From a virus, in IMG/VR virus record IMGVR_UViG_3300020220_000153, positions 1-37,215 of that record: 37,215 bases of DNA. One strand, given 5' to 3'. The translations under genes were made by a program, and so were the position numbers. The notes beneath the pieces are model-generated. The model was given only the letters and a program-made list of their open reading frames with translations, had not been told where the DNA came from and did no database searches. Below, in pieces: positions 2,632 through 23,360 of this stretch; positions within the stretch are counted from its first letter, which is position 1, and each line of letters begins with the position of its first letter.

Positions 2632-5289
2632 TTATTTTTCTGGTAGATAATCTATTGTTTCAGATACAGACTTTTTAGACTTTTTAGGCTTTTTATTACG
2701 CTTTTTCATATTGATAGCGATTGCTGCTTGCTGTGCTAGATTTGCTGCTTCTAGCATTTTTAATAGTTTTTGCTTTTGCTCAAGTGTAGCATTTGGTAAC
2801 AGTGGTTGCATTTTTCGATAAAACTCTTTGAGTTTTTTGCCTTTAGGTTTTGGCATATTGAATTTAACAAGATTGTCTTTTGCTATCTTCATCATGTCTA
2901 ATACTTCTTTATCACTCAATGATAGGCTCATTGAGTCACGCCATATTTTAAACTTTTCTTCCTCGCTCATATTAGGGTCTAGTAATGCGTTACGCATAGG
3001 TGTTGCTCTTGGCCCTTCGTGATAATCTTTACTACTTGGGTCGCTGCCAGGAGCCTTAGTATCTTGTCTACTCATTACAGTCAAGTTATCTAAGCCAAAT
3101 GACTTATATGGTTCTACGCCCGTACTTTTTGCTGGCTTTAACAAATAACCAAATGCTTCTTTTTGATCTGCGCCTACAACTAATGCTACATCTTTGTAAC
3201 CCTTACTACCTAAATCAGTCAATACATCGTTGAGTGTAGGTTTATCTTCTGAGGGTAAATTAAATATGTTTTTGTACTTAGGAAACTTCTTTTGATACAT
3301 CTGTAGTTTCATTTCAGGTGGAATAGGATCGTCTTTACCAAAACTGCGTGAAACGATAAAGAATGGTTGTGCGTCTGTACTTTGTGCTTGATGTATAACT
3401 GCGTTTGCTAATGCGTCATGACCTGTATGACCCATACCACGCCCCCAACCTAACACAGCCTTTTTACCTTGCTGTTCTTTTAGTACGCTTTCTTTTGGGC
3501 TCCATGTTGGTTGATCAATGACCTTAATAAACTGTCCTGGTATATCATAGTTAAACTTGCGTCCTGGATGTGCCTGTGCATAACCTTCTGGTTTTGTTTG
3601 GCGTATGCCACCATGACTCATTTGATTTAGTTGATTGATGAAGTTTGTTTTTTCTCTACTTAATACTTCTATAGCGCCTAGTGTTGCTAGCATTCCTTCT
3701 TTGTCTGCTAACATTGTTTTTGCTTTATTAGCACTTAGATTTGTCTCAGCCCATTGTGGGAAATCACGCATCAATCCATCTCTACGCAAATGGTCATTTA
3801 AGTAAGAATATAGTTCTGCTGCTGGTTTGCCTAAGCCAGGCTTTGGTTTAAGATAGTTGTCAATTTTTTGTGCGTGTGACTTAATAAATTTTTCAGCGTT
3901 ATCAAGCATCTTTGTATCAACTTTCACAGGTTCTTGTACAAATGTAGTACCCTGTACTAATACATCAGATGTGCTTAAATTCTGTGCATCAGGGAAACGT
4001 TGCTCGTCACTTGAGCCTAATGCAGGATAATAACCTGTAGCAGCAACTCCTACTTTCGCTCTAGCAATCTTTTTACCTAAATCACTATCTGCTGGTACAT
4101 GAAATTCTGTAATGTTTGGTTGAAAGTCATATGTGTTTGTTTCTTTATTGAGTACAGGCATAGCACTTTGACCATCTGGCTTAGTACCTGGATAGAATAA
4201 TAATCCACCTTCAATAAATCCTTGTTTAGGACTAATCTTTTCAAAATATGGCCACAACATAGCAAACTGTTTAGCAAATTTAGCACGTTCTTTAGGATCA
4301 CCTCTCCCTGTGCCTAATATAAACTTAGCAACATCTTGTGGTGATTTAGTTAATGTAGGTGCCCCACTAGTTGTTTGTGTTGAACCACGCTTTAGATATG
4401 CCCATGCATTCTTGGGAATCATCATAAAGTTGCCACTTTCATCACGACCCCAATATACTACAGGCATCCCGTCCCACTTTAATTCAAGGCTACCACCTGT
4501 TGTTGCCATGTCACGCAATCTTTCTATTGCGTGTAGTCCACCATAACTACCATGACTCAATATTAAATCTTCAATATGTTGATACTTACGACCTACATCG
4601 GTTGCTTCTGAGATTTGGTCTGAAAAATATTTGTCTTTAATTGCTTGATATTTCTCAGGATATTTTTGTAGCGCCTTCATCAACTTTGTAGGATTGCCCA
4701 TATCGTCTGCTGATGCTGTTGGTCCTATAATGATTTTGGCAATCTTATCTTTGTCATTAGTCACTAATTCTTTTGTTTCACGATCTACTAAACCCTTATA
4801 TGGGCTCATCATTAAACTACTATGACCTTTAATACTACTCATGTTAGCAAGATCAGCCCACATACCATGTAGTGTGCCGCCCTTCATTGTTGGGTCGGTA
4901 TAATCGTGTGTATGTAATGGCACCGCTGCTTTAGCATTTTCTACAGCCATTAAATCTACTTGAACAATATCATCACCAGCGCCTGTAGGTATACCAACGT
5001 GTATGCTAACTCCTGTTCGTGCTGCTGGTAATCCTTTATCTTTAAAATAATCTTCTAATGCTTTGCGACTGAGTTTTAATTCTTTAGCAGGAAATGCTTT
5101 CATTAATTCGCCTGCATCAATCAATGCGTCAATGTCACTACTAATTTCTTTTTTGCCTGCACTACCAATTGGATATAAGTTTATACCTTTTGGTAAAATC
5201 TTTTGTAGGTTTTTTACAGCGGTAAGAAAGTTAGCCTTGTTAATAGGTTTGGCATTTGGAATAACATTGCCGCCCTCTTGTAAAATCAT
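2632..5289 (-). CDS. Three-module nucleotidyltransferase-like protein (DUF6267-like)
   Basis: The 885-residue product shows three nucleotide-transfer signatures in order. Residues 41-112 resemble a Pol-beta type nucleotidyltransferase: G-S at 42-43, D-I-D at 52-54, and VDLM with D112 as possible third carboxylate. Residues 240-425 carry KWDG at 271-274, then YWGRDESG, FIEGGLLFYPG near 358-368 and AKVGVAATGYY near 411-421. This order fits motifs I, III and V of covalent nucleotidyltransferases (ligase or capping fold), with K271 as the possible adenylated lysine. Residues 612-770 begin GRGMGHTGH, with HTGH at 621-624, and contain PRATPMRNAL, an ISSTxxR-like motif; this is the cytidylyltransferase-type HxGH fold. 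The C-terminus is Lys-rich and helical. Large proteins of this kind occur in marine T4-like phages, where I recall the middle part as DUF6267. Substrate is unknown. It starts one base after the preceding stop without a clear ribosome site. Confidence 0.7.
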   Translation of the reverse strand: MILQEGGNVIPNAKPINKANFLTAVKNLQKILPKGINLYPIGSAGKKEISSDIDALIDAGELMKAFPAKELKLSRKALEDYFKDKGLPAARTGVSIHVGIPTGAGDDIVQVDLMAVENAKAAVPLHTHDYTDPTMKGGTLHGMWADLANMSSIKGHSSLMMSPYKGLVDRETKELVTNDKDKIAKIIIGPTASADDMGNPTKLMKALQKYPEKYQAIKDKYFSDQISEATDVGRKYQHIEDLILSHGSYGGLHAIERLRDMATTGGSLELKWDGMPVVYWGRDESGNFMMIPKNAWAYLKRGSTQTTSGAPTLTKSPQDVAKFILGTGRGDPKERAKFAKQFAMLWPYFEKISPKQGFIEGGLLFYPGTKPDGQSAMPVLNKETNTYDFQPNITEFHVPADSDLGKKIARAKVGVAATGYYPALGSSDEQRFPDAQNLSTSDVLVQGTTFVQEPVKVDTKMLDNAEKFIKSHAQKIDNYLKPKPGLGKPAAELYSYLNDHLRRDGLMRDFPQWAETNLSANKAKTMLADKEGMLATLGAIEVLSREKTNFINQLNQMSHGGIRQTKPEGYAQAHPGRKFNYDIPGQFIKVIDQPTWSPKESVLKEQQGKKAVLGWGRGMGHTGHDALANAVIHQAQSTDAQPFFIVSRSFGKDDPIPPEMKLQMYQKKFPKYKNIFNLPSEDKPTLNDVLTDLGSKGYKDVALVVGADQKEAFGYLLKPAKSTGVEPYKSFGLDNLTVMSRQDTKAPGSDPSSKDYHEGPRATPMRNALLDPNMSEEEKFKIWRDSMSLSLSDKEVLDMMKIAKDNLVKFNMPKPKGKKLKEFYRKMQPLLPNATLEQKQKLLKMLEAANLAQQAAIAINMKKRNKKPKKSKKSVSETIDYLPEK

Positions 5290-5845: not shown

Positions 5846-6535
5846 TTACTGCTCTTTTGCTAGAGTATAGGTTTTACCCAACATATCTGAAAACCACATG
5901 CTTAAAACGTATAGCATTTTCTCATCGTTATATTCTACAAAAAACGACCCGTGCATGTATCTATAGGCATGCCAATTATTAGTAGTAAAAAGATGATTTG
6001 CTAAACCCCTACTAAAATGTAAAGTTTTATACATATCTACTAGTGCCCTAACATTATCACTAAAGTCTTTTGGCATGCGTCTAGCCTTAAAATATGTTCT
6101 AAATTTATATTTAGGCTGACGCCTAAAATATAAGGTCTTTGGATCATGGCATATTGCTTCATACAATTTTAGTTGCGGGTCCAAATTATCTAAGGTTTTA
6201 AGTAATTGCAGTTCATTACTAAAGAAACTTACGCAGTCTTGCTGAATTCTTATTACACAGCGTTCTTTTCCAATAAGGGTACGCCACGTTATAAATGCAG
6301 CGATTTGGTCTATATTAACTTCGTCCCAATATTCTTGCCAATCGTCATCTATCACTCTTATGCCGTACTTAGTACGATTCGTTTCACGCAACTTTTCCAT
6401 GCGCCCAATAAATGTAGATATATCGGGCGTATAATAGGTGTAGGACGCCCCTTTGATTTTGCAAACTGCCTTGTACGAAAATTTATTAAAGTATAGTTTG
6501 TTTCTTTTTTCAATTTTCAATTTTGATAATTCCAT
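5846..6535 (-). CDS. Conserved phage hypothetical protein
   Basis: The 229-residue product starts at ATG 6535 (MELSKLKIEKRNKLYF) inside the last 26 bases of clpA. An in-frame GTG at 6553 is possible, but GGTGA directly precedes the ATG. The protein is basic and rich in aromatic residues, with no membrane segment or signal peptide. A Trp/Tyr-rich region (DDDWQEYWDEVN near 65-75) and a C-terminal block with YRYMHGSFF and MLGKTYTL look conserved rather than low-complexity. The overlap with clpA suggests translational coupling and perhaps a shared time of expression. I do not recognise a family. Confidence 0.65.
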   Translation of the reverse strand: MELSKLKIEKRNKLYFNKFSYKAVCKIKGASYTYYTPDISTFIGRMEKLRETNRTKYGIRVIDDDWQEYWDEVNIDQIAAFITWRTLIGKERCVIRIQQDCVSFFSNELQLLKTLDNLDPQLKLYEAICHDPKTLYFRRQPKYKFRTYFKARRMPKDFSDNVRALVDMYKTLHFSRGLANHLFTTNNWHAYRYMHGSFFVEYNDEKMLYVLSMWFSDMLGKTYTLAKEQ

Positions 6536-8780
6536 CTTCACCAATACTAGCACTAGTTTTTTGTGTCACATTAAATGTAATATTATCATCATTATCTAAT
6601 ATAGCCATAATATTTGCATTATTAATGCGTTCAAAAAGAATTTTCTTACTTAATGGTACTCGAATTAATTCATCAATTTTACGTGCTAGAGGACGTGCGC
6701 CCATCTTAGTATCGTATCCCTTTTCGGCAAGATATTCCACAACTGGTTCACTTAAGTTAAGTGTAATATTGTGTTTCTCAACTAATGCTTTCTTAACATC
6801 TTCAGTAAATTTAACAACAATCTTCTTAATGCTAAGTAGATCCAACTTTTTAAACTTACATACTTTATCAAGACGATTTCTAAACTCTGGTTTAAAGAAG
6901 TCCTTAAATGCTTTATCATCCTCTCCAGTCTTTTGCAGATCACCGAATCCAATATTGTTACGCTCACTATCAGCACTGCCAAGATTAGTTGTTAAAATAA
7001 TTACACAGTTTTTACAACTTACTTCCTTGCCATTACTACCAGTAATACGACCTTCGTCAAGAATTTGCAAGAAGATATTAAAAATATCTGGATGTGCCTT
7101 CTCGACTTCATCAAAAAGCATAATAGCATGTGGGTTTTTACTTAGATCACTAATGAGTCGCCCACCCTGTACTTGACTATCACTAAAGCCAACATAACCA
7201 GGGGGAGGGCCAATCAAAGCACTCACAGTATACTTTTCGCTATATTCGCTCATGTCATATTTCAATAATGGCATGTCAAGGTTCTTGCTTAATAATTTTG
7301 CTAATTCAGTTTTACCTGTGCCAGTTGGACCCATAAACAAGAAACTTGCTATTGGCTTAGTTTCATTATTAATACCTGCAAATGAAACGTATATACGTTC
7401 CAATACATTGTTTACTGCTTCATCCTGTCCATATAATTTGTCTTTAATATTTGTATCTAAACTATTAATGCGTTCAAAGTTATCGTTATTAAGTTTGTCA
7501 GCAGGAACTCCTGTATATTTTTCAATCTCATCGAAAATCATACTTTTAGTAATTTCAATATTCTTGTTACCTTTTACCTTTTGTTTTGCACAGGCTGCAT
7601 CAAGTAAATCAATACTCTTATCAGGGTTTTTACGATCAGGAATATATCTTGTAGCCCCATCGACTGCTGTATCAATCGCTTCTTGGCTTATAGACACTTC
7701 ATGGAAGTCACCCAAACGCTGACTTAAGCCATTAAGTATACGAATAGTACTTTCTTTACTTGGCTCGTCTACAGTAATTTTAAAGAATCTACGCATTAAA
7801 GCACGATCTTTTTCAAAACTTTCATAGAAATCTTCCCAAGTTGTTGAAGCAATGACCTTAAGTTTGCCCTTTGTTATGGCAGGCTTAATCATGTTGCTAA
7901 AGTCAACACTTCCGTTTGAACTGCCACCAGCACTTTTCATGGTATGTGCTTCATCAATGAACAAGATAGCTTTCTTTTTGGTTGATAACGCATCGATTAC
8001 ATTCTTTACCTTTTCTTCAAAGTCGCCGCGATATCTTGATCCTGCAAGTAGTCCTGCTACTTCAAGACTATACAAATCATAACCCTGTAAGAATTCAGGT
8101 ACTTCATCTAATACAATAGCCCGTGCAATACCCTCAGCAATAGCAGTTTTGCCAACTCCAGGATCGCCGACCATCAACACATTACTTTTAAAACGTTTTG
8201 CTAATACATGGATAATATTTTCTATTTCTTTGTGACGCCCAATAACAGGTTCAATTTTATCTTCTTTTGCAAGATTAGTAAGATTTGTAGTATATTCACT
8301 TAGTACTTCGTCTGCTTGACTTTCTGTTAATTGTGTTGAATATTCTCCGCCCTTATATGTTTTTTGCCAGTGTAGTAAAAATTCCTGTCTATTGATACCA
8401 TACTTTAATAAAAAGTAATGCGCATGACTATTGTTTTCAGCAGCAATACTTAAATATAAGTCAAGTGTAGTAACCATGCGACGACCAGTGAACAATACTT
8501 GTGTAACACTACGATTCATCACACGTTCTAGACTATTGGTTTTACGTGGCTTACAATCTGGATCTCTACTTTTAATTGCGTGAAATCCTGAAATATAATT
8601 TTGCAGTTCACCAATAAACATATCCGTTTCGCAACCAAATCCACTCAAGCATTTCTTAAATGGCTTGTGTGTAACAAGTGCTAATAGAAGATGTTCCACT
8701 GTAACATATTCGTGATTAAAACTTTTTGCAATGGTAACTGCTTGTTCAATAATATTTTCAATTTCGGGTGAATTTTGCAT
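6510..8780 (-). CDS. clpA: ClpA-like AAA+ unfoldase, full length
   Basis: The 756-residue protein is close in length to bacterial ClpA (about 758). Residues 1-145 form a Clp N-domain. The first AAA+ module has Walker A GDPGVGKT at 205-212 and Walker B LFIDEAHT at 273-280. The second has GPTGTGKT at 484-491, pore loop GYVG at 528-531 and Walker B LFDEVEKAHPD near 555-565. The middle region is short, as in ClpA and unlike ClpB. Residues 610-612 are IGF in the ClpP-docking loop position, before FFKPEFRNRLD. In bacteria ClpA unfolds substrates and feeds them to ClpP. No clpP or clpS is in this window, so the phage protein may work with host ClpP or alone. It lies upstream of a 26-base-overlapping gene and 8 bases after the J-protein gene. 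Confidence 0.95.
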   Translation of the reverse strand: MQNSPEIENIIEQAVTIAKSFNHEYVTVEHLLLALVTHKPFKKCLSGFGCETDMFIGELQNYISGFHAIKSRDPDCKPRKTNSLERVMNRSVTQVLFTGRRMVTTLDLYLSIAAENNSHAHYFLLKYGINRQEFLLHWQKTYKGGEYSTQLTESQADEVLSEYTTNLTNLAKEDKIEPVIGRHKEIENIIHVLAKRFKSNVLMVGDPGVGKTAIAEGIARAIVLDEVPEFLQGYDLYSLEVAGLLAGSRYRGDFEEKVKNVIDALSTKKKAILFIDEAHTMKSAGGSSNGSVDFSNMIKPAITKGKLKVIASTTWEDFYESFEKDRALMRRFFKITVDEPSKESTIRILNGLSQRLGDFHEVSISQEAIDTAVDGATRYIPDRKNPDKSIDLLDAACAKQKVKGNKNIEITKSMIFDEIEKYTGVPADKLNNDNFERINSLDTNIKDKLYGQDEAVNNVLERIYVSFAGINNETKPIASFLFMGPTGTGKTELAKLLSKNLDMPLLKYDMSEYSEKYTVSALIGPPPGYVGFSDSQVQGGRLISDLSKNPHAIMLFDEVEKAHPDIFNIFLQILDEGRITGSNGKEVSCKNCVIILTTNLGSADSERNNIGFGDLQKTGEDDKAFKDFFKPEFRNRLDKVCKFKKLDLLSIKKIVVKFTEDVKKALVEKHNITLNLSEPVVEYLAEKGYDTKMGARPLARKIDELIRVPLSKKILFERINNANIMAILDNDDNITFNVTQKTSASIGEDGIIKIEN

Positions 8781-8788
8781 ATATGTAT

Positions 8789-9589
8789 TTAATTTCCTTT
8801 ATTACGTAATATACTATCAACAATATCTTGACTAATGTTATCAGGTATATATGGCTTTAGCAATATTAGTTGGTCACCATATTGCATAGTATTTGGTATT
8901 GGCATACCTTGATTAGTTAACTTAAGTTGCATAAACGGTTGAGTTTTTGCAGGTACATTTACATTTAATACTCTACCTGATATAGTCATAAAATCAAATT
9001 TGGTTCCCACAATCAAATCTAATACACTAATACTATGATTGCTATACAAATTATCTCCTTCACGGTCATACGACAGATGGGGCATAACAACGAATTCAAC
9101 AAGTAATGTTGCATTAGTAAATATATTATCTAGTCTAACTTGTTGTCCACTTTGTATGCCTTTAGGAATTTCTACATTTACAATTTTTTGTCCCTGAGCA
9201 GTATTTAATTTTAACGTTTGGCTACTGCCGTTATATGCATCTAGCAATGAAATTTTAATCTGTGTTCGCATTAACTGTCTTTGGTTTCTTCGTTGACCAA
9301 ATGCATTATTATTAAAGATTTGTCCGAATATGTCATTCATATCCATACCTGGACCCATGTTAAATTGAAATCCTCCAGGGCCCATATGAAATCCTTGTGG
9401 CTGAGGATTATCATATTGTTGACGTTTTTCACTATCGCTTAATGTATCGTAGGCTGTTTGAATTTCTTGGAACTTTGTAGTATTGCCGCCCTTGTCAGGA
9501 TGATGCTGACTAGCGAGTTTACGATAGGCTTTTTTGATTTCATCAGGCGTAGCAGTTTTGCTTACGCCCAAAACAGCATAATGATCCAT
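8789..9589 (-). CDS. DnaJ/CbpA-like J-domain co-chaperone
   Basis: From ATG 9589 the product is 266 residues (MDHYAVLGVS); a TTG two codons earlier is possible. Residues 1-65 are a J domain with HPD at 30-32, the tripeptide that stimulates DnaK ATPase. A short Gly/Phe-rich linker follows (about 67-105, rich in GPGGF). Residues 105-266 are a DnaJ C-terminal substrate-binding region. No CxxCxGxG zinc repeats are present, so it is CbpA-like rather than full DnaJ. It precedes clpA by 8 bases in the same operon. A probable role is recruiting host DnaK to phage substrates. Confidence 0.93.
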   Translation of the reverse strand: MDHYAVLGVSKTATPDEIKKAYRKLASQHHPDKGGNTTKFQEIQTAYDTLSDSEKRQQYDNPQPQGFHMGPGGFQFNMGPGMDMNDIFGQIFNNNAFGQRRNQRQLMRTQIKISLLDAYNGSSQTLKLNTAQGQKIVNVEIPKGIQSGQQVRLDNIFTNATLLVEFVVMPHLSYDREGDNLYSNHSISVLDLIVGTKFDFMTISGRVLNVNVPAKTQPFMQLKLTNQGMPIPNTMQYGDQLILLKPYIPDNISQDIVDSILRNKGN

Positions 9590-9607
9590 GCTCAAATTTT
9601 AACAGTT

Positions 9608-20371: not shown

Positions 20372-21568
20372 TTATTGGAATGTTAGGTTCTGTACAGCGA
20401 TCTCGCCTACATAGTCAGCTGCGTTACCGAAGCTGCTTGCAGTGTTAGTCAACTCTACATAACCATAACGTGTCATAAATGACACGACTGGTTCGAAAGT
20501 TGATGGATCAAGTACAACACCGCTTGACATCAATGGGATGTATGGGCAGTAGAATGCTGCTGCGTCAGTCTCACTTGAGCCCTTATAACCAACCAATACT
20601 GGTTGAGAATCGTTAGCATATGAGTTGACGAATACACGCATTGCACCGTTCAATGTACCAACAAACTTAGTGTTAGTTGGTGCTTCGAAAGTGCCTTCAG
20701 TTGTACGTGCGAATGCTGAAGTTGTTGCTGACTGTAGAACAGTCAAAGCTGCTGAAGATACAACTGCAAAGTTACCTGCACCGCGACGAGTGCGCTGTGC
20801 AATCAAGTTTGCAACGCGGTTGATTAGAACTGCTAGTGCAGCGTGTTCGTCACCAACATAAGTTGCTGTGCCTGATACTGTTGCTTGGTTGTATGTAAAT
20901 TCTGTTGCTGCTAGAGTGCTTAGTGACAACAAAATTTCTTGGTCGATTTCAGCAGTGATTTCCTGTGCTAGAGCAGCCATAATTTCTGCTTCTACGTCGA
21001 TACCATGCTGTGACTGTGCATCTTGAGCGGCTTCGAATGTCCAGCGAGCTTGTAGCTTGCGTGACTTTGCTTCAACAGCCTGTCTTAAGATTTGTACAGA
21101 AATTAACTTACCGCCGTTACCTTCTAATGCTGCTGTATCATTGCCTGTGTAGCTTGATGATGAAGCAGTATTTTGTGGTGTACGTGAATATGCCTGAGCA
21201 ATTTTGAATGGGCTCAATGCTTCTTCACCAGCAGTTACGCTTGTTGCGGCTGCTGAAGTGTCAGTTAATGACTGTGCGTAACGAACACGTAATGTATGAA
21301 TCTGACCCACTGGACCAGTCATTGGCTGAACGCCTACTAATTCGTTAGCGATAACAGTTGGCATAACACGACGAATTACTGGAAGAATAACGCGATTTAG
21401 TGTTGCGATATTACCAGCAGTTGTAGTGCCTGCAGAAGATTCTGCTAGCAACTGCTTGCGAGTGTTTTCTAGAATAACACCCATTGTTGAACGACGAGTT
21501 CCCTTTAGACCTTCTAACAGGGCATCTTTAGTCTCGTCCCAACGGCTTTCTAAGAGTACTTTAGACAT
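20372..21568 (-). CDS. 23: Major capsid protein gp23
   Basis: The 398-residue protein matches the T4 gp23 family, with conserved LNRVILPVIRRVMPTVIANELVGVQPMTGPVGQIHTLRVRY near residues 57-97 (in part). It is shorter than T4 gp23 (521), as in marine relatives. The N-terminal 43 residues are a probable propeptide. LAE at 41-43 before SS fits the gp21 consensus (hydrophobic-X-Glu). AGGAGA precedes the ATG. A weak TATAAAGA about 19 bases upstream may be its late box. The gene ends at the strong terminator. Folding in T4 needs GroEL-gp31; here a GroES-like protein is encoded elsewhere in the window. Confidence 0.97.
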   Translation of the reverse strand: MSKVLLESRWDETKDALLEGLKGTRRSTMGVILENTRKQLLAESSAGTTTAGNIATLNRVILPVIRRVMPTVIANELVGVQPMTGPVGQIHTLRVRYAQSLTDTSAAATSVTAGEEALSPFKIAQAYSRTPQNTASSSSYTGNDTAALEGNGGKLISVQILRQAVEAKSRKLQARWTFEAAQDAQSQHGIDVEAEIMAALAQEITAEIDQEILLSLSTLAATEFTYNQATVSGTATYVGDEHAALAVLINRVANLIAQRTRRGAGNFAVVSSAALTVLQSATTSAFARTTEGTFEAPTNTKFVGTLNGAMRVFVNSYANDSQPVLVGYKGSSETDAAAFYCPYIPLMSSGVVLDPSTFEPVVSFMTRYGYVELTNTASSFGNAADYVGEIAVQNLTFQ

Positions 21569-21594: not shown

Positions 21595-22704
21595 TTAAAG
21601 CCCTGCCAGACGCTTGAAATCAATCAAGTTACTTTCGGCAACTGGATCTTCTTCAACTTTCTTATTGGCAGTTTGTTTATCACCTGTAACTTCTTTTACA
21701 ACACTTTCAGTTATAGTAGTTTTAGCGCCTACTTTTTCACTTCCAGTGTTAAGTACTGATGGTAAATATTTGTCGAAAGCGACCTTCAATTTTGGTGTTT
21801 GGACGCCTTCAAGTAAAGTTTTCATTACTGAAGCCTTCTCATCGTTTAATGGCGATAGCAATTCTGCCATAGCCTTTTCGCGCTGAGTTGATTCTTTAAT
21901 AATGCGAACTTCACGATCCTTTGATTCTACTAGCTTTTGGGCTTCATCAACCTTTGCTGTAGCTTGTGCTAGTTCTTGTTCCTTAGCAGCAAGTTCTGCC
22001 TTTATCTTGCGAGTTTCAGCCTTATCATTTAGATAAGTTACACTGTATTCGCTAGCATAGGCTTCGAACAACTTGCGACCAAAGTTATTTTCTCTAGCAA
22101 CTTTGATATCTTCTTTAAGCTGTGATAGTTCAGTCTTAAGATGTTTAGCAACAGCAGTGCCAACTTTTGATGCACTTTCAGCAATAAATTTTGCTTTGAG
22201 TGCTTCTAATTGTTCGCGACCTTCTGCTACTAACTTAACACGTGCTTCAACAACTGCTTGTTTGTCTGTGCTAAATTCCTTGATTTCACGCGCTAAGGCA
22301 TGAACAATGAACTTTTCAAGTTTTTGTTGATTTTCCGTTTGAACTTTACGATCATTACGTAGTTCACGAATTTCTTCAGCAAGTTTAGTGACCATAAAGT
22401 CATTAAACTTTTCTGCGTGTTCTTGCATCTTTAGTTGACCCTTGACTCGATCTTCACTTATAATCTTCTTTTCTTCGTGGAACTCACGAATTTCTTCTGA
22501 TAGACTTTCAGTTACCATCTTGTCTAGAGCCTCAACCATCACGCTTCTGTCATGCTCATACTTTTGTGCATACTCCTCACGTAGTTCTGCACGTACTTGT
22601 TCTTTGGCTTCAACTAACTTTGCTTCCCAAGCCTCATTTAAAGTCTTGGAAACGTCTTCATTAATGAGACCACTGTCAAGTAATGGTTTGATAGCATCTA
22701 ACAT
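21595..22704 (-). CDS. 22: Prohead core scaffold protein gp22
   Basis: The 369-residue protein is highly charged and helical, with repeated REE, EIREL and EEIREF heptads, the expected scaffold of the T4 prohead core. Its position between gp21 and gp23 matches T4. It begins MLDAIKPLLDSGLINED and ends IDFKRLAGL. An AGGGGA ribosome site lies upstream. gp22 is degraded by gp21 after assembly. It is longer than T4 gp22 (269), mainly in the coiled-coil middle. Confidence 0.92.
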   Translation of the reverse strand: MLDAIKPLLDSGLINEDVSKTLNEAWEAKLVEAKEQVRAELREEYAQKYEHDRSVMVEALDKMVTESLSEEIREFHEEKKIISEDRVKGQLKMQEHAEKFNDFMVTKLAEEIRELRNDRKVQTENQQKLEKFIVHALAREIKEFSTDKQAVVEARVKLVAEGREQLEALKAKFIAESASKVGTAVAKHLKTELSQLKEDIKVARENNFGRKLFEAYASEYSVTYLNDKAETRKIKAELAAKEQELAQATAKVDEAQKLVESKDREVRIIKESTQREKAMAELLSPLNDEKASVMKTLLEGVQTPKLKVAFDKYLPSVLNTGSEKVGAKTTITESVVKEVTGDKQTANKKVEEDPVAESNLIDFKRLAGL

Positions 22705-22718
22705 GCTGCGTTCCCCTA

Positions 22719-23360
22719 TTATGTAATTTTCAACTCTTTGATGAGGCGTTTAACTTCCTCAGCCAAATAGTTTTGTACCTTCTTGTCGCCCCTTGTTTCC
22801 CTAGCGATTTCTAAAACTTTATGACCATACTTCATATTATGAAGGCTTTCATAAATTGCTTTAGGATATGCGTTAGGTGCGCTTGGCTGTGCGACAATAT
22901 CAACAGTGATTATTTCAAAATCACTTACCTTACCGTTCAAGTCACTTACATTACCTGATCCGCGACTTGAAACGCCTAGTTTAACACCACTCTCCAACAT
23001 AGTCTTTACAAGTTGACCCATTGGAGTTGGTAAAATCTTTAGTTTGCCGTAGCCGTTTGGCCCATCCATCCACATGCTTGTAATCATGTGACTTACACGA
23101 TCTAAATTAATTTTTAGATCATCTGGGTGATCGACTTCGCCTAATACTGAGTAACCTTCTGTAATCTGCTTGTTTAACGTTTCAACGGCAGTCTCAATTT
23201 CAGCAACGGGATAAACACGCTCATTTGCGTTCTTTACCCCGCCCTGAATAAAGATGCCCTTCATATAGAGGGTCTTTAGGTCGCTGCCCTGTTCACTAAC
23301 AGATTCAACGACCATGTTTGCTCTATCAAACGTTAAGTGTTCCTTGAGATACAAAGCCAT
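22719..23360 (-). CDS. 21: Prohead protease gp21
   Basis: The 213-residue protein is the T4 gp21 family (peptidase S80, herpesvirus-protease-like fold). GEVDHPDD near 74-81 holds the likely catalytic His. GVSSRGSGNV near 130-140 holds the catalytic Ser. DIVAQPSAPNAYP is a conserved substrate-site block. AAGGGT precedes the ATG. It cleaves gp23, gp22 and core proteins after (Leu/Ile)-X-Glu during head maturation. Confidence 0.95.
   Translation of the reverse strand: MALYLKEHLTFDRANMVVESVSEQGSDLKTLYMKGIFIQGGVKNANERVYPVAEIETAVETLNKQITEGYSVLGEVDHPDDLKINLDRVSHMITSMWMDGPNGYGKLKILPTPMGQLVKTMLESGVKLGVSSRGSGNVSDLNGKVSDFEIITVDIVAQPSAPNAYPKAIYESLHNMKYGHKVLEIARETRGDKKVQNYLAEEVKRLIKELKIT

Follow-up and report, generated by a model that had tools for sequence, protein, structure and literature searches.

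The window, the whole stretch of viral DNA that we analysed (37,215 nucleotides, positions 1 to 37,215 of IMG/VR record IMGVR_UViG_3300020220_000153), is a fragment of a T4-like phage genome, with genes for a portal protein, SbcCD-type gp46/47 and a late sigma factor. All window features described here are on the minus strand. An uninterrupted reading frame at 2632..5289 encodes an 885-aa protein, a putative precursor consisting of three nucleotidyltransferase modules (A, B and C, from the N- to the C-terminus); the plus-strand frame over the same positions contains many stops, and the minus strand is the coding one. Pfam recognizes only DUF6267 (residues 237-558, 1.9e-13) in this protein, PHROGs adds a 'cytidyltransferase' (residues 603-852, 1e-16), and a search of NCBIfam gave no match. 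The three-way A-B-C fusion is not an assembly error, as it recurs in 13 further, independent IMG/VR contigs (identity mostly 79-90%, one 100%).

Elsewhere in the window, a gene at 1130-1642 encodes a membrane-anchored c-type cytochrome with a CAACH motif (Cytochrome_CBB3, 1e-11), which is an unusual phage gene. The gene at 1661-2581 encodes a 306-aa protein without a Pfam match, in which a collagen-like repeat (GPTGPTGATGP) precedes a region resembling a glycosyltransferase on visual inspection. A ClpA/ClpB-type AAA+ unfoldase (6510-9595) is found beside a DnaJ protein; an unfoldase of the same type is also found upstream of the A-B-C cassette in seven other loci of our collection (L034, L036, L047, L055, L063, L101 and L104).

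Module A (residues 6-224, 4618..5274) is a Pol X-like nucleotidyltransferase. Its AlphaFold2 model, built with 50 homologues, has a pLDDT of 93.5, and the best 50 Foldseek matches in the PDB are all Pol X polymerases (mu, lambda, beta and TdT; E ~1e-5, probability 1.00, TM ~0.5), a list that may be inflated by the abundance of Pol X among PDB entries. Module A shares with these polymerases the whole-module fold, the GS..DxD catalytic motif (residues 42-54, 5128..5166; G42, S43, D52 and D54 in 50 out of 50 homologues) and a third aspartate, D112 (4954..4956; 50/50), presumed from Pol X to be the third catalytic carboxylate; Q110 and R170 are also invariant (50/50). It differs from them in sequence: identity is only ∼15%, the Pfam palm model DNA_pol_B_palm matches one of the 50 members, weakly (0.071), and NTP_transf_2 matches two (0.017). 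Neither A nor B had a meaningful match among PDB sequences in direct sequence searches, and tblastn with the window's module A found no homologue in known phages; a divergent A (from locus L114) was required as the query to reach those of the phages PA5oct, Atu_ph07 and Phosso. Homologues of A and B were found with peptide patterns (DIDALID or MILxEGGN; KWDGxP or xxHLE), which partly biases the residue counts, although D112, Q110, R170, E568-G569, K589 and all residues of C are outside the patterns. We have little doubt that A is a nucleotidyl-transfer module. In two loci (L013:6001-9219 and L014:1309-4527) a 1072-aa A-B-C fusion has a strongly diverged A as its N-terminal module (32% identical there), whereas B and C are very similar to those of the window; this is apparently a recombination or replacement of A.

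Module B (residues 229-600, 3490..4605; AlphaFold2 pLDDT 91.1) is the DUF6267 part of the protein, and its fold matches and a chain of homologues point to a divergent RNA-ligase-like adenylyltransferase. The earlier note had placed this module at residues 235-470; it in fact extends to about residue 600, with ligase motifs IV and V at 568 and 589. Motifs I (K271-W-D-G, 4468..4479), IV (E568-G569, 3583..3588) and V (K589, 3523..3525) occur in order along the module: K271, D273 and G274 are kept in 81 out of 81 rows covering them (but KWDG belonged to the search pattern for B homologues), and motifs IV and V in 82/82, as are N498 and K547. Ligases dominate the PDB fold matches: the top one is Trl1, a tRNA ligase of fungi (probability 0.80, E 0.02), and the ligase of African swine fever virus is among those that come next; every PDB match is above E 0.001. 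In a comparison with viral models, B has high-confidence matches to its own family; next come PA5oct A0A4Y5JUK8 (1e-5) and a protein of Atu_ph07 that is annotated as RNA ligase (probability 0.80). A profile of B leads to PA5oct EST35_0228 (1.6e-4), which leads to Phosso 446 (1e-11) and on to Atu_ph07 AUZ94878 (5e-28); the last of these has a weak match to PF09414 RNA_ligase (0.002, under the family cut-off). The window's B itself has no match to PF09414 over the cut-off, DUF6267 being its sole Pfam match, and hhalign comparisons with single sequences of T4 Rnl2 or T4 DNA ligase were not significant, the only piece aligned with Rnl2 being motif IV (EGYV). Compared with RNA ligases (PF09414, Trl1, T4 Rnl1/Rnl2), with which it shares the ordered motifs I, IV and V, B differs by a helical stretch that separates motif III from motif IV and by a chain that ends soon after motif V. 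We call B ligase-like rather than a tested ligase, but it is likely that it is a ligase-type enzyme. A search of bacterial genomes with B matched mostly MAG contigs.

The RNA-ligase-like gene of this homologue chain lies directly before the A homologue in Atu_ph07 and Phosso, and ∼1.3 kb from it in PA5oct. In Agrobacterium phage Atu_ph07 this pair is directly followed by an array of tandem paralogues (L209:10676-16426) that start with MRWHQLTEA or MKWEQLTES and have a common YRGM motif; they have no Pfam match and are possibly further packaged effectors.

Module C (residues 608-826, 2812..3468) is an NMNAT-like HxGH nucleotidyltransferase. The PHROG cytidyltransferase match (1e-16) covers it, and a profile of C compared with PDB sequences finds nicotinate-nucleotide adenylyltransferase (NadD) best, then NadM and NadR. 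Like these adenylyltransferases, C homologues have a (T/H)xGH motif (H621-T-G-H624 in the window, 3418..3429) and a counterpart of the NMNAT S/TxxxR motif (RATPMR, residues 761-766, 2992..3009): G623, H624 and R766 are kept in 56 out of 56 homologues, as are G616, R617 and D708, and the first position of HxGH is H in 28 and T in 28. The window's C differs from the NMNAT/NadR type in that GRGMGHTGH replaces the usual GRFNPPTxGH (NPP is lost), and in having short inserts. CTP_transf_like (PF01467) has matches with E of 0.01 or lower in 32 of the 56 homologues, but none in the window's own module. That C is a nucleotidyl-transfer module is as little in doubt as for A. The earlier note had read three nucleotidyltransferase-type modules on one chain from the motifs G42-S43..D52xD54, K271-W-D-G, H621-T-G-H624 and PRATPMR (last residue R766). 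All of these motifs are found, and the reading is borne out by the folds (Pol X-like for A; RNA/tRNA-ligase-like for B, best PDB E 0.02) and by the conservation of catalytic residues among homologues of A, B and C.

The three modules form a cassette that we found in more than 150 distinct loci (contigs ending inside a locus hide some of the genes). As separate genes, A, B and C are found together in 40 loci, A and B in 24, and B and C in 42. Fusions are less frequent: A-B-C in 14 loci, A-B in six and B-C in one, and mixed loci have either a separate A next to a B-C fusion (nine) or an A-B fusion next to a separate C (five). Single modules are A in one locus and B in 26, so that A is accompanied by B in 98 out of 99 A-bearing loci. 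The order across cassette loci is A, B, C without exception, and neighbouring module genes overlap or are at most 20 bp apart in 126 out of 160 pairs. It is very likely that A and B are functionally linked. The strict co-occurrence and fixed order support the suggestion of the earlier note that the three modules act together; in most phages they are separate genes, and a single chain is therefore dispensable for function. Cyanophages, Melnitz and HTVC008M have B and C as adjacent or near-adjacent genes without A; in T4-like cyanophages, DUF6267 (PF19782)/T4-GC 71 beside the 'cytitidyltransferase' T4-GC 190 are homologues of B and C in the same order, but as separate genes and with A absent, in contrast to the window.

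Other domains are found in and around the cassette. In HTVC008M (L019:7751-8413) a P-loop kinase (Zeta_toxin/AAA_33) separates B from C, and in another locus (L146:7168-9909) such a kinase is fused ahead of C; it could be a polynucleotide-kinase-like partner. Two loci without module A (L121:2517-4994 and L130:4211-7603) have a second, different Pol-beta-type domain before C (PF18765/PF01909, weak). An HD_4/HD domain (1.9e-15) extends a B-C protein (L038:2338-5616), and an NT5C-type 5' nucleotidase/phosphatase, fused with a possible peptidase region, is encoded just downstream of A-B-C (L063:10261-12006). In L179 (1325-4138) a different HxGH-like region is found before B: the 937-aa protein has an N-terminal GGFKPPHAGH (HxGH-like by eye), a SET domain and a C-terminal DUF6267, joining an HxGH region and B in reversed order.

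The short linkers of the window protein contain predicted sites for the prohead protease of T4-like phages. The presumed processing enzyme, a gp21-type head maturation protease, is encoded at 22719..23360 (phrog_207, 1.7e-60), close to a gp22-like scaffold assigned by position (21595..22704, eight [LI]xE[AGS] sites) and the major capsid protein (20372..21568; phrog_138, 8.5e-97), which has an LLAE/SS site at residue 43. In the 885-aa protein, residues 1-5 (MILQE, 5275..5289) would be a propeptide with an [LI]xE[AGS] site after E5 (kept in 46 out of 50), E228 (4606..4608; QISE/ATD) is at the A/B junction and E605 (3475..3477; VLKE/QQG) at the B/C junction. E847 (2749..2751; KMLE/AAN) is a possible site, by motif and in one sequence only, before a basic tail (residues 848-885, 2635..2748; AQQAAIAINMKKxxKKPKK..DYLPEK) conserved among the close family. 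The strict motif [LI]xE[AGS] is found at the A/B junction in 14 out of 19 non-redundant A-B fusions and at the B/C junction in one out of 17 (1.6% expected). The relaxed motif [LIVM]xE[AGSQDNE] is found in 19/19 and 17/17, respectively (3.7% expected); these counts are weaker evidence, as the motif was picked after inspecting the sequences. The window protein has five relaxed sites (5, 228, 605, 776 and 847), of which 5, 228 and 605 coincide exactly with module borders, and residues 1-5 and the junctions are disordered in the predicted models. Given the apparent head-protease sites in its linkers, the protein would probably mature into three separate enzymes. Several observations count against a packaged precursor: the B/C junction fits the relaxed motif only, the conserved EGGN of A may have a structural role instead of marking a cleavage site, and, as described below, the A homologue of PA5oct has no targeting peptide, B was undetected in the virion of S-SZBM1 and the virion C proteins could be carry-over.

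Many of the stand-alone genes encode proteins with T4-type capsid-targeting starts (e.g. MKITHLLSEA, MKSFKQYLSEA-like and MRLRELFVES), resembling the N-termini of T4 IPII and IPIII (MKTYQEFIAEA). Within residues 4-23, an [LI]xE[AGS] motif occurs in 86% of A, 45% of B and 41% of C proteins, the value for A being due in part to search bias. Control ORFs have it in 14% of cases, and elsewhere along the module proteins its frequency is mostly 0-5%; the peptide is absent from many cyanophage B proteins. In T4, the first 10 residues of the capsid-targeting sequence are enough for packaging, and processing at its Glu end removes the peptide; enzymes such as Alt are delivered by this route (PMC9026906). 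With T4 IPI-IPIII and Alt, our family has in common a short [LI]xE-terminated peptide at the N-terminus, a T4-type protease gene in the genome and, for homologues of A and C, occurrence in virions. The window protein differs from the T4 internal proteins in having three nucleotidyltransferases in one precursor, with a predicted site per junction.

C homologues have been detected in virions by mass spectrometry in three cyanophages: S-CREM2 (ORF154; PMC10665884), S-SZBM1 (S-SZBM1_140; PMC9146016) and S-SCSM1 (ORF91; PMC9602691). Our C profile confirms the latter two as homologues, and for S-CREM2 we follow the paper's annotation. The published proteome studies also name S-CBWM1, discuss the virion NMNAT-like proteins as NAD enzymes and caution about possible carry-over. 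A homologue of A, PA5oct EST35_0231 (profile 7e-16), is deposited as 'structural protein, ESI-MS/MS', and has no targeting peptide. In S-SZBM1, B lacks a targeting peptide and was undetected in the virion, whereas C has one and was detected (PMC9146016), a contrast consistent with the peptide acting as the signal. The S-SCSM1 virion protein beside the NMNAT (ORF90) was considered as a DUF6267 member and ruled out by profile.

On the whole, we give an even chance to the reading that the ORF encodes a precursor inside the head of a T4-like phage, cleaved by gp21 and injected together with the genome, with A and B serving end repair and C a cofactor; packaging with processing, taken by itself, is somewhat the better bet. 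The precursor, stringing together the Pol X-like A, the RNA-ligase-family B and the NMNAT-like C, would be taken up by the prohead, and during maturation gp21 would cut it at the sites in the short disordered linkers into three enzymes, which would enter the host along with the genome. B would self-adenylylate on K271, and A and B may form an extend-and-seal pair acting at broken or nicked nucleic-acid ends, either of incoming phage DNA or of RNA, from host or phage, that a defence system has cleaved. C would make or restore an adenylylated cofactor, most likely NAD. A role of A and B in nucleic-acid end repair is somewhat favoured because A almost never occurs without B; candidate substrates are RNA ends, DNA ends and NAD. 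The fullest version is a more tentative proposal: an end-repair kit carried in the head as a polyprotein (a Pol X-like extender, a ligase and an NAD- or nucleotide-activating enzyme) would be processed by the head protease and injected, and would mend breaks that host defences make in DNA or RNA before phage gene expression, with C perhaps recycling the cofactor of B (we considered that B may be an NAD-dependent enzyme, whose NMN C would recycle).

Among the alternatives, the one that survives best, though unlikely, is that the protein remains an uncut, cytoplasmic trifunctional enzyme, fused for equal amounts or substrate channelling, with the linker motifs as relics of former N-termini. The open chain with each module well folded, the existence of several fusion states and the frequent location of the cyanophage genes near replication genes (uvsX, gp41) agree with this, but every fused junction keeps a site, even in A-B fusions that are apparently independent, and virions contain homologues of A and C. 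It is less probable still that the virion carries a packaged NAD system, in which C would be an NMN adenylyltransferase that restores NAD when a host defence depletes it, with A and B as accessories: the resemblance of C to NadD, NadM and NadR and the published discussion of virion NMNAT-like proteins as NAD enzymes would fit, but the linkage of A to B is far tighter than their linkage to C, neither A nor B has an obvious part in making NAD, and NPP is missing from the window's C. Injected effectors that nucleotidylate host proteins (by AMPylation or similar) and reprogram the host, delivered as T4 Alt is, are very improbable: the delivery signal is similar and the A/ligase pair of Atu_ph07 is followed by the paralogues with MRWHQLTEA-like starts, but protein nucleotidylation would not be expected to involve a ligase partner, and the first matches of A are to Pol X polymerases that use a template.

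The individual folds, the virion NMNAT-like proteins of cyanophages, packaging by targeting peptides in T4, and the B and C families, separately, were known before. In an incomplete search of the literature, in which DUF6267 was nowhere mentioned, we found neither the A-B-C cassette nor a ligase-like character of DUF6267 described, and no case of a polyprotein of enzymes that a head protease appears to process. Our analysis gives DUF6267, a family of 'unknown function' widespread in marine T4-like phages, a testable ligase-like biochemical identity, links the family with a Pol X-like partner that is almost never found in its absence, and relates A and B to the puzzling NMNAT-like proteins repeatedly detected in cyanophage virions. 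If the packaged-precursor reading is true, the head protease would also serve as a polyprotein-processing enzyme, and many phages would inject a ready-to-use repair or cofactor toolkit, an early layer of counter-defence that would be invisible to expression studies.
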